This document shows positions 18,554-20,722 of a stretch of 20,846 nucleotides of DNA, in pieces. The notes under the pieces are model-generated. The model had not been told where the DNA came from. It did no database searches and worked only from the letters and a program-made list of their open reading frames with translations. This DNA is from a virus. How positions within the stretch are numbered: position 1 is the first letter of the stretch; each line of letters starts with the position of its first letter. The stretch lies in the IMG/VR virus record IMGVR_UViG_3300027659_000265, positions 1 through 20,846 of that record; one strand, given 5' to 3'. A program made the translations under genes and the position numbers.

Positions 18554-19591
18554 TCACCCCAGCCGCCTCACCGCCTCCAGCGAGTGATCGTCGCGCACGT
18601 GGCCATAGGTCCGCATGGCCAGCGCGCCGCCGTCCTTGTGGCCCAGCCATTTCGAGACGGTCGGAACATCCACGCCGGATTCGATGCACCAGGTCGCGAA
18701 AAAATGCCGCAGGTCATGCACCCGCATCCTGGGCAGTTCGAGCGCCTCGCACGCCGTGTCCAGCGCCCGGCGCGGGGATCTGAGGGAGAAAATCCGGTCC
18801 GCGTCCCTCGCATCCTCCGGCCGCGCCTCATCGAGGATCGCCCGCAACGGCGCGGAGATCGGCACCCGCCGGAACTCCGCGCCTTTCGTCTCGCCATCCA
18901 CCCCAATTTCCAACCACTCCGGCTTGACGTTGCCCCACGTCAGCGCCGCCGCCTCGCCCTTGCGGCAGCCCGAGAACGCCAAAAACCCCACCAGCCGCGA
19001 AGACTGCACGCACCCGCGCTTCCGCTGGCCCAGGATGAACCCCACGATCCGGTCCATCTCACCGCGCCCAGGCATCGCCCTCAGCACCTTCCGTGGCCGC
19101 ATCCGTTGCAACTCCCGCGTCGGGTCGTCCACCCGCAGCCCGGCCTCGATGAGGATTCCCGCCAGCTTTCGGATCGCCCCGTGCAATTTGTTCGCCACCG
19201 ACACCGAGTATTTCGCGCCGACCTTCGCCCACCAAGCCGCCGCCTCCTGCCGGCTCCAATCGCCGCCGGCCGCCGTCAGCGGCAAAGTGTCGCGCAAAAT
19301 CCGGATCACGTCGCCGCAGGCCGCCGCCGTCTTCGGCCGGATGTTCGGGCGCTCCACCAGGTCCGCCTCCAGCGCGTTGACCGCATCCCGCAGCGTCCGG
19401 GACGCGCCCTTCCGTGCCGCCGCCTGCGACCGCTCGCCCGCAAGCCGCGCGTTGCGCTTGATCTTCGCGATCTTCAGCGAATCCGTCTTGAGCGAAACGC
19501 GGATTGTCTTGCCAGCCACCTTGGCGCGCAGGTAATAAACGCCGTTCTCATGACGCACCAAGTTCTCACCCACATTCACAAAGTCTCCCAT
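18554..19591 (-). CDS. Tyrosine-family site-specific integrase
   Basis: The 345-residue protein catalyses recombination between attP and a bacterial attachment site. An N-terminal arm-binding-type region (GVYYLRAKVAGKTIRVSL) and a core-binding domain precede a catalytic domain with SGCRKGE (R210), a likely K236 in GETKGAE, HDLRH (H292, R295), WLGHKD (H318) and the nucleophile Y329 in RTYGHVRDD. All expected residues are present, so it should be active. It is the only leftward gene. Its promoter side faces the tRNA-half attachment region 122 nt away, as expected for an int-att pair, and its 3' end converges on the tail hub gene. Confidence 0.95.
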   Translation of the reverse strand: MGDFVNVGENLVRHENGVYYLRAKVAGKTIRVSLKTDSLKIAKIKRNARLAGERSQAAARKGASRTLRDAVNALEADLVERPNIRPKTAAACGDVIRILRDTLPLTAAGGDWSRQEAAAWWAKVGAKYSVSVANKLHGAIRKLAGILIEAGLRVDDPTRELQRMRPRKVLRAMPGRGEMDRIVGFILGQRKRGCVQSSRLVGFLAFSGCRKGEAAALTWGNVKPEWLEIGVDGETKGAEFRRVPISAPLRAILDEARPEDARDADRIFSLRSPRRALDTACEALELPRMRVHDLRHFFATWCIESGVDVPTVSKWLGHKDGGALAMRTYGHVRDDHSLEAVRRLG

Positions 19592-19597
19592 GCCGGA

Positions 19598-19626
19598 AAC
19601 TTTGCGGTTTCGTCGGTTTTTGTCAA
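19598..19626 (-). promoter_or_regulatory. Possible integrase promoter
   Basis: On the - strand a perfect TTGACA (19626 to 19621) is followed, after 17 nt, by AAAGTT (19603 to 19598), a poor -10. The start codon is 29 nt downstream of the -35 box, so the leader would be very short. Only the -35 match is good. Confidence 0.25.
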
Positions 19627-19637
19627 TTTCCCCGGCA

Positions 19638-19680
19638 CGGAGGTAGGCAAAAGCGGTGGGAGAAATCCAATTCGCTCGGG
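19638..19680 (+). repeat. Attachment-region direct repeat, unit 1 (left of the tRNA half)
   Basis: CGGAGGTAGGCAAAAG at 19638-19653 is identical to 19853-19868. It is followed by a related GGTGGGAGAAAT and a shortened match to the ATTGCGCTCTGG part of units 2 and 3. It lies between the integrase start and the tRNA half, as an arm-type integrase site would. Confidence 0.65.
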
Positions 19681-19690
19681 AATTGAATTT
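19663..19690 (+). repeat. Imperfect inverted repeat upstream of the tRNA half
   Basis: AAATCCAATTC (19663-19673) and GAATTGAATTT (19680-19690) pair at 10 of 11 positions around a 6-nt spacer. It could be an operator for integrase control or part of the recombination complex. Confidence 0.4.
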
Positions 19691-19712
19691 GTAAATCGTT
19701 GAAAATAAGCAA

Positions 19713-19751
19713 GCGCCTGTAGCTCAGTTGGATAGAGCACCCGCCTTCTAA
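19713..19751 (+). other. 5' half of tRNA-Arg(UCU): probable attachment-site core
   Basis: GCGCCTG (acceptor strand), TA, GCTC-loop-GAGC (D arm with AGTTGGATA), A, CCCGC (anticodon stem 5' strand) and the seven-base loop CTTCTAA with anticodon TCT are present. The sequence then changes to TTTGATTTGG instead of the expected GCGGG, so the gene is cut exactly after the anticodon loop. It cannot make a tRNA. A clean half-tRNA beside an integrase marks the identity segment used for integration. Flanking repeats on both sides suggest attP rather than a chromosomal junction. Confidence 0.8.
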
Positions 19752-19852
19752 TTTGATTTGGGGGGGGTGGGATTGTTGGGTTTCCTTATGGAATAAGGGA
19801 AAATTCAGGGTCATCGGGCCGGAATCGGGCCCGGAAAACGCTCGTTTCGGGG

Positions 19853-19904
19853 CGGAGGTAGGCAAAAGGGGGTGGGCGAAAATAACAGCATTGCGCTCTG
19901 GCTG
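19853..19904 (+). repeat. Attachment-region direct repeat, unit 2
   Basis: It begins with the 16-bp CGGAGGTAGGCAAAAG shared with unit 1 and ends with a 27-base block (19878-19904) shared with unit 3 at 26 of 27 positions. ATAACAG (19882-19888) also pairs with CTGTTAT (19902-19908), a perfect 7-bp inverted repeat missing in unit 3. Confidence 0.75.
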
Positions 19905-19913
19905 TTATGTGGA

Positions 19914-19964
19914 CGGAGGCTGGAAAACAAGGGGTGTGAAAATAACAGAATTGCGCTCTGGCTG
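19914..19964 (+). repeat. Attachment-region direct repeat, unit 3
   Basis: It starts CGGAGG, is diverged in the first half, then matches unit 2 over 27 bases (19938-19964) except one C-to-A change at 19949. Spacing to unit 2 is 60-61 bases, so these could be helically phased binding sites. Confidence 0.75.
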
Positions 19965-20062
19965 GTGGCTGGCGGATTTGACCTTTTTCCCATGTGGCGG
20001 ATGATCTATCCAGTTGACGCAATTTCGTTGCGGCGCGGGAGGGAACCGGATAGAAGCGGGGC

Positions 20063-20722
20063 ATGAAGAAGATCGCGGGGGTGTCGGTGTGGACTTGGGC
20101 GGCGGGAATGGGCGTGGCGCTTGCTGCCGTGGCGGCGATCGGGCAGGCGATGGATGGCGGGAACGGGAACGGGAAACCAAAGGAAGCCGCGACCAAGGTG
20201 GCGGTCGCGGCGGGTAAGGAAAAACCCGGCACCGAGGTTGAGGCGCTGGGGCAGGCCGCGTTGCAAGAGATCCAGCTCAGGACATGGGCGGTGGATTCCG
20301 TGGCGACCTGCGAAACGGATCTGGAAAAGCAGACGCTCCCCGGCAAGGCGGCGCTGGCGTCAATCGCTCTGAATGAAGCAAAGGGAGGATTGGCGAAGGG
20401 TGACGCGAAGATGGCGGCGGCGCTGGAGATGCTGAAGGCGAAAGGCGTGGCTGGTGGGATACTTGCCAGCCAGTTAACGAGCTTTTCCAGATACTCCGAC
20501 GAAGTCATCCGCGAGTATAACCGGGCACGCAGGTTTGACGGATACACGCCGGAAGCTAGGGAGCTTCACATCGAGTCCCTGAGGACGCGGGCCATGAATG
20601 GCGACGGTGTTTCACTTGATGACGTGCGGCGCGGCGGGTATGAGTCGGAGGTTATGCGGCGGGTCAAGGCGGCGTGGCAGGAGGAGATTAACCGGATGAC
20701 GCGTGAGGCGCTTTCGCGCTAG
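20063..20722 (+). CDS. Unknown exported or membrane-anchored protein beyond the attachment site
   Basis: The 219-residue product has a hydrophobic N-terminal helix (about 6-28: GVSVWTWAAGMGVALAAVAA), which could be a signal peptide (possible cut after IGQA) or an anchor, then a G/N/K-rich linker (31-57) and a mostly helical, charged body with one cysteine (C83) and an RxxR-rich end (YESEVMRRVKAAWQEEINRM). No family recognised. Base usage resembles the phage genes. Location just past the attachment site is where accessory (moron) genes often sit, but it might be a host gene if the junction is chromosomal. No Shine-Dalgarno at normal distance before ATG 20063. Confidence 0.6.
   Translation: MKKIAGVSVWTWAAGMGVALAAVAAIGQAMDGGNGNGKPKEAATKVAVAAGKEKPGTEVEALGQAALQEIQLRTWAVDSVATCETDLEKQTLPGKAALASIALNEAKGGLAKGDAKMAAALEMLKAKGVAGGILASQLTSFSRYSDEVIREYNRARRFDGYTPEARELHIESLRTRAMNGDGVSLDDVRRGGYESEVMRRVKAAWQEEINRMTREALSR

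Follow-up and report, generated by a model that had tools for sequence, protein, structure and literature searches.

Why does a phage genome carry the 5′ half of a tRNA-Arg(UCU) gene beside its integrase, with no 3′ half following it? The window analyzed here is the complete IMG/VR entry IMGVR_UViG_3300027659_000265, which is 20,846 nt long and classed as linear. Since Pfam and PHROG matches reveal an Sf6-like small terminase, a Mu-like portal, a head maturation protease, and a major head protein, the window represents a tailed phage. No recognised host genes were seen in it. The locus comprises the following features.

18554–19591, minus strand: tyrosine-recombinase integrase of 345 aa (Pfam PF00589, E 1.4e-13; phrog_1, E 1e-42), divergent from the tRNA half.
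19592–19712, no strand: gap of 121 nt between the integrase and the tRNA half, the integrase-side arm region; tRNA nt 1 lies 122 nt from the integrase start.
19633–19668, plus strand: arm-like repeat toward the integrase, made up of CGGCACGGAGGTAGGCAAAAGCGG and, after it, a degenerate second unit GCGGTGGGAGAAATCC (repeat D1, 88% to 19848–19871).
19713–19751, plus strand: 5′ half of tRNA-Arg(UCU), spanning nt 1 through the last position of the anticodon loop, very probably the attP core (39/39 match with complete tRNA-Arg(tct) genes; nt 1–39/40 duplicated in integrated relatives).
19848–19904, plus strand: arm-like repeat unit 2, away from the integrase (D1 and D2).
19909–19964, plus strand: arm-like repeat unit 3, away from the integrase (D2, 83% to unit 2, spacing 60).
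20063–20722, plus strand: ORF of 219 aa beyond the core, from the ORF listing, codirectional with the tRNA half.

The 39-mer GCGCCTGTAGCTCAGTTGGATAGAGCACCCGCCTTCTAA occupies 19713–19751 on the plus strand, and tRNA identity breaks off directly past the anticodon loop, where TTCTAA is followed by TTTGATTTGG. ARAGORN detected no tRNA in the window, and the 3′ half is absent, in agreement with the first-pass annotation. That annotation had also proposed a search for a complete tRNA-Arg(UCU) sharing the 39 nt, and such genes exist. A complete tRNA-Arg(tct) on contig L003 (375–451) is identical to the window over nt 1–39, of 260 genomes from the Luteolibacter marinus family 15 contain the 39-mer, and all 12 checked loci bearing it in Akkermansiaceae-type genomes are complete tRNA-Arg(tct) genes with identical nt 1–39. 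The 39/39 match is not due to chance. The 39-mer also occurs in the tRNA of L003, an unrelated viral contig, and is therefore not diagnostic of one particular host. Neither a lysogen of this phage nor its attB turned up in the genomes searched. An Rfam scan of the region returned one sub-threshold P10 match and nothing else. The stretch at 19996–20017 matches the central part of the tRNA half imperfectly and in inverted orientation (18/22), perhaps as a remnant of a different att core or by chance; 3 of 150 shuffles scored as well, and it was discarded as too weak to count as evidence.

The core is surrounded by direct repeats. D1 (24 nt, 88%) has copies at 19633 and 19848, and D2 (41 nt, 83%) has copies at 19864 and 19924, so that one repeat copy lies toward the integrase and two lie on the opposite side. 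This arrangement bears out the earlier description of a half-tRNA with direct repeats at 19638–19964, an interval that covers the core and the repeats, with unit 1 on the integrase side and units 2 and 3 beyond. The integrase-side repeat is a degenerate tandem pair, GAGGTAGGCAAAA / GCGGTGGGAGAAA, and tandem GGTGGTCAAAA pairs are found at the matching place in two related phage contigs, L002 and L004. In L002, tandem TTTTGACCACCGC units occur two per side of the core, and L004 exhibits the same pattern. The repeats presumably serve as arm-type integrase sites.

Three related phage contigs share this layout, as expected for an attP with a 5′-half core. Their integrases are 60–62% (L002 and L004) and 47–50% (L006) identical to that of the window, and each carries the tRNA-Arg(UCU) 5′ half upstream of the integrase, in the same orientation, ending at TTCTAA and flanked by repeats like those of the window. 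In L002 and L004, viral-contig DNA lies on either side of the core. None of the three records, which may be fragments, yielded the window portal; otherwise different phages therefore appear to share only the integration module. A more distant integrase (L007, 36%) is associated with the opposite arrangement, a flipped tRNA-Thr(UGU) 3′ half. No close relative was present in INPHARED, where the ten matches listed are all partial, at 23–28%. We conclude with high confidence that the locus is the attP of a Verrucomicrobiota temperate tailed phage, with the 5′ half of the host tRNA-Arg(UCU) as its core, and that integration swaps in that half.

A lone half gene could also be a product of decay, namely an old attL or attR from which the tRNA 3′ half was deleted, and degenerate tRNAs do lie beside the integrases of L127 and L133. 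Such a history is very improbable for the window, in which the 39-nt identity is perfect and stops exactly at a functional boundary, repeats are found on both sides of the core, and three other viral contigs stop at the same place.

The attP reading predicts a defined course of integration. The divergent integrase would recombine attP with the host tRNA-Arg(UCU) at their shared anticodon-loop region, and the crossover would fall within the loop itself. The host 5′ half and its promoter would be moved to the prophage end opposite the integrase, where the orphan half would read into phage DNA. Meanwhile, the phage 5′ half would join the chromosomal 3′ half beside the integrase, yielding a complete tRNA with phage DNA upstream. 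The gap at 19592–19712 would then become the DNA immediately upstream of the rebuilt tRNA, which would be transcribed from element DNA by an element promoter. The corresponding gap is conserved in the tRNA-bearing relatives, ranging from 102 to 318 nt and mostly from 120 to 155 nt.

Integrated relatives, taken as full-length integrase matches adjoining a complete tRNA, reveal both ends of such insertions. The far end was located for nine elements (L128, L135, L155, L156, L160, L129, L145, L157, and L115), which span 5.7 to approximately 41 kb and occupy tRNAs Ser-CGA, Arg-CCT, Arg-TCT, and Met-CAT. All nine have a complete tRNA at one end and the core duplicated at both. Their far ends carry an orphan tRNA 5′ half that ends at nt 39/40, with no 3′-half sequence past it; this half stays with the host-side upstream DNA, while element DNA precedes the rebuilt tRNA. 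Identity of the orphan half begins exactly at nt 1 in most of the nine. In L156, it reaches 5 nt further upstream through shared letters, and in L160 and L115, the letter preceding the acceptor stem (ARAGORN nt 1) differs between the halves. When the two flanks of the L160 element are joined at the tRNA, they align without a break, at 96%, with the sister genome L232, in which the site is empty. A search for an uninterrupted empty site of L145 found none, and the distal half was not found in the stretches examined of L085, L101, L118, L121, L124, L152, L154, and L159. On the strength of the nine relatives and the empty site, the rebuilding of a tRNA from an element 5′ half and a chromosomal 3′ half, as put forward in the first-pass annotation, is demonstrated for the clade, as distinct from the window's own host.

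The two halves differ at position 6 in L145, with G6 in the displaced half and C6 in the integrase-side half, which produces a C6–C67 acceptor-stem mismatch in the tRNA-Arg(CCU). From the letters of the two halves, this tRNA looks like an element/host chimera, the alternative being a later mutation. The mismatch in the rebuilt tRNA-Arg(CCU) (L145 9776–9848; L181 near 986) would possibly leave the chimeric tRNA impaired. At the L129 element, the far flank (L201, approximately 19086–19145) resembles the integrase-side arm of other Ser-CGA elements, which suggests that the site may have had an earlier occupant.

The integrated relatives also bear on whether the half could instead act independently as a phage-encoded tRNA fragment, for instance a decoy or regulatory RNA. 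Its exact start at tRNA nt 1 and its shared direction with the downstream ORF at 20063–20722 would suit such a role. The position next to the integrase, the repeats, and the recurrence of halves as a duplicated att segment in the nine relatives are fully explained by integration, and no promoter is seen before the half; we regard this interpretation as scarcely credible.

The attP sequence found in the window would equally be present where two phage copies are integrated in tandem, with the integrase end of one copy followed by the 5′ half and then by the far end of the next. In that case, the mechanism would be unchanged, but the genome would not be free. Junctions with only the 5′ half do occur within bacterial MAG contigs (L111 and L161), and the resemblance of the L129 far flank to the integrase arm of an earlier occupant points the same way. 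In contrast, L002 and L004 carry the half inside single viral contigs, away from their ends, with no host DNA seen near the half in the stretches read, and the window lacks a recognised host gene. A tandem origin is thus quite improbable. The proposal that the window derives from an unintegrated, circular, or excised genome remains likely, tempered by the linear IMG/VR record and by the fact that a tandem-prophage junction looks identical.

In a scan of bacterial genomes, 80 integrase loci were collected, nearly all from Verrucomicrobiota. Most have an ARAGORN tRNA just upstream of the integrase, on the opposite strand, with its 5′ end facing the integrase. When orientation was labelled for the scan loci together with hand-read cases, 76 integrases were 5′-facing and 8 were 3′-facing, and the 5′-facing ones target 13 anticodon classes. 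The reversed, 5′-half orientation is therefore the rule in a large integrase clade, rather than a quirk of the window phage. A quickly built integrase tree, in which a few rows have long branches, indicates at least 6 changes of orientation and at least 29 changes of tRNA target, and this disparity implies that 5′ capture has been stable over long evolution. Orientation is nonetheless not fixed, since the nearest 3′-facing integrases (L086, L087, and L089) belong to the window's own subclade, together with the 5′-facing L084, L085, L088, and the four phages. L084 and L085 are two integrase-tRNA loci of one cultured strain, Luteolibacter marinus NBU1238. In either orientation, the tRNA half adjacent to the integrase is that of the element. 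The anticodon stem-loop target has dyad symmetry (PMC8371274), so that an integrase reading the core could use it either way round; this symmetry may explain the orientation flips. Because the 5.7-kb L156 element belongs to the clade, very small elements use the same integration system. This element (L156 624–6200) carries the integrase, an ORF with an HYHLFVFG motif that is HUH-replicase-like by eye, and an AAA-ATPase-like ORF.

The system shares a tyrosine integrase, a core inside a tRNA gene, and the rebuilding of that gene on integration with the usual elements that replace the 3′ half. Those elements keep the original tRNA promoter, whereas the window element carries nt 1–39, so that the promoter is lost; in the relatives, likewise, the 5′ end of the complete tRNA faces the integrase. 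Integration at the anticodon stem-loop is known from such elements (PMC8371274, citing Williams 2002). Recombination with the tRNA 5′ region is considerably rarer than with the 3′ region, and Zhao and Williams 2002 (J Bacteriol 184:859), with a reversed target orientation, is cited as a precedent for it (PMC6563490). Among archaea, CalSub-E1 of Ca. C. subterraneum seems to have used the 5′ part of a tRNA-Ser gene for its recombination, as the window phage would, but it is a single case, the other thaumarchaeal tRNA insertions in that survey all being 3′ (PMC6563490). Archaeal pTN3-like integrases use the tRNA 5′ half as well, an arrangement seldom met in bacteria; in these Thermococcales elements, integration splits the integrase into Int(N) and Int(C), and the integrase promoter drives the rebuilt tRNA (PMC8371274). 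In the window clade, by contrast, integration leaves the integrase whole, with its transcription directed away from the tRNA, and the window core is placed upstream of the integrase gene at a distance of 122 nt, an arrangement distinct from the suicidal split of the pTN3/SSV type. The Zhao and Williams study, to judge by its title, reportedly concerns a single element, compared with at least 13 anticodon classes in the window clade. A literature search, mostly without subscription papers, found no description of a large bacterial clade in which 5′-half integration is the rule. Integration by the 5′ half is thus already known; what is new is its generality across Verrucomicrobiota and the missing promoter.

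The loss of the native promoter raises the question of how the rebuilt tRNA is transcribed. Sigma70 scores were compared with dinucleotide shuffles of each sequence, using an approximate E. coli-type matrix. Native leaders score well, with z values of 2.01 for free tRNAs (n = 13) and 2.37 for six 3′-facing relatives with native upstream DNA, and displaced host leaders reach 1.22 (n = 6). Element leaders score no better than shuffles (mean z 0.18, SEM 0.16, n = 59) and differ from native leaders with a Mann-Whitney p of 1.2e-7, a comparison in which the element leaders are the more AT-rich (39% against 52% GC), a bias that per-sequence shuffles may correct only partly. Tests of the element leaders for an extended −10 and for inverted repeats gave no signal. 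Around the window half, the sole sigma70 match lies at 19978–20005, past the core, with none before the half. The first-pass annotation had held that phage DNA supplies the promoter region of the tRNA, by which the phage could control a host tRNA-Arg; element DNA does stand upstream, but the 59 leaders contain no sigma70-like promoter. A degenerate motif, GTAAGT..TTG..AAT.AA..GGTT, occupies positions −25 to −1 before the tRNA (19688–19712 in the window) in several elements with differing tRNAs, and lies approximately 21 nt downstream of a GTCAA at the arm repeats. This motif appears more like att geometry than a promoter.

The contrast between the element leaders and the native z of 2.0–2.4 could also mean that the rebuilt tRNA, stripped of its promoter, is silent after integration and that the host relies on other tRNAs. 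This outcome is possible but rather unlikely: in 10 of 11 assemblies with Arg-UCU elements, no complete tRNA-Arg(UCU) other than the rebuilt gene turned up (the assemblies are incomplete, and the search pattern allowed 3 mismatches), and the tRNA sequence is kept intact, a property that silence would not select for. Transcription of the rebuilt tRNA from an unrecognised element promoter is the likeliest explanation. We tentatively propose, while holding the full scheme to be doubtful, that this Verrucomicrobiota integrase clade routinely takes host tRNA genes and strips their sigma70 promoter, so that an element-borne and possibly lysogeny-dependent promoter takes over the host's sole tRNA-Arg(UCU) or some other tRNA, while the freed host promoter is directed into the distal prophage end. 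Once the window phage is integrated, the displaced host tRNA promoter would point toward the ORF at 20063–20722, for which Pfam and PHROG searches gave no match. The far-end genes of L155, L156, and L002 are oriented opposite to this ORF.

These findings extend what reviews treat as a rarity, 5′-half tRNA integration, to a whole clade. Delimiting prophages by duplication of the 3′ half could misplace the ends of these elements, and tRNA annotation would overlook the chimeric nature of the rebuilt gene. For the Verrucomicrobiota that carry them, the elements constitute a natural experiment on what transcribes a needed tRNA after its promoter has been lost.
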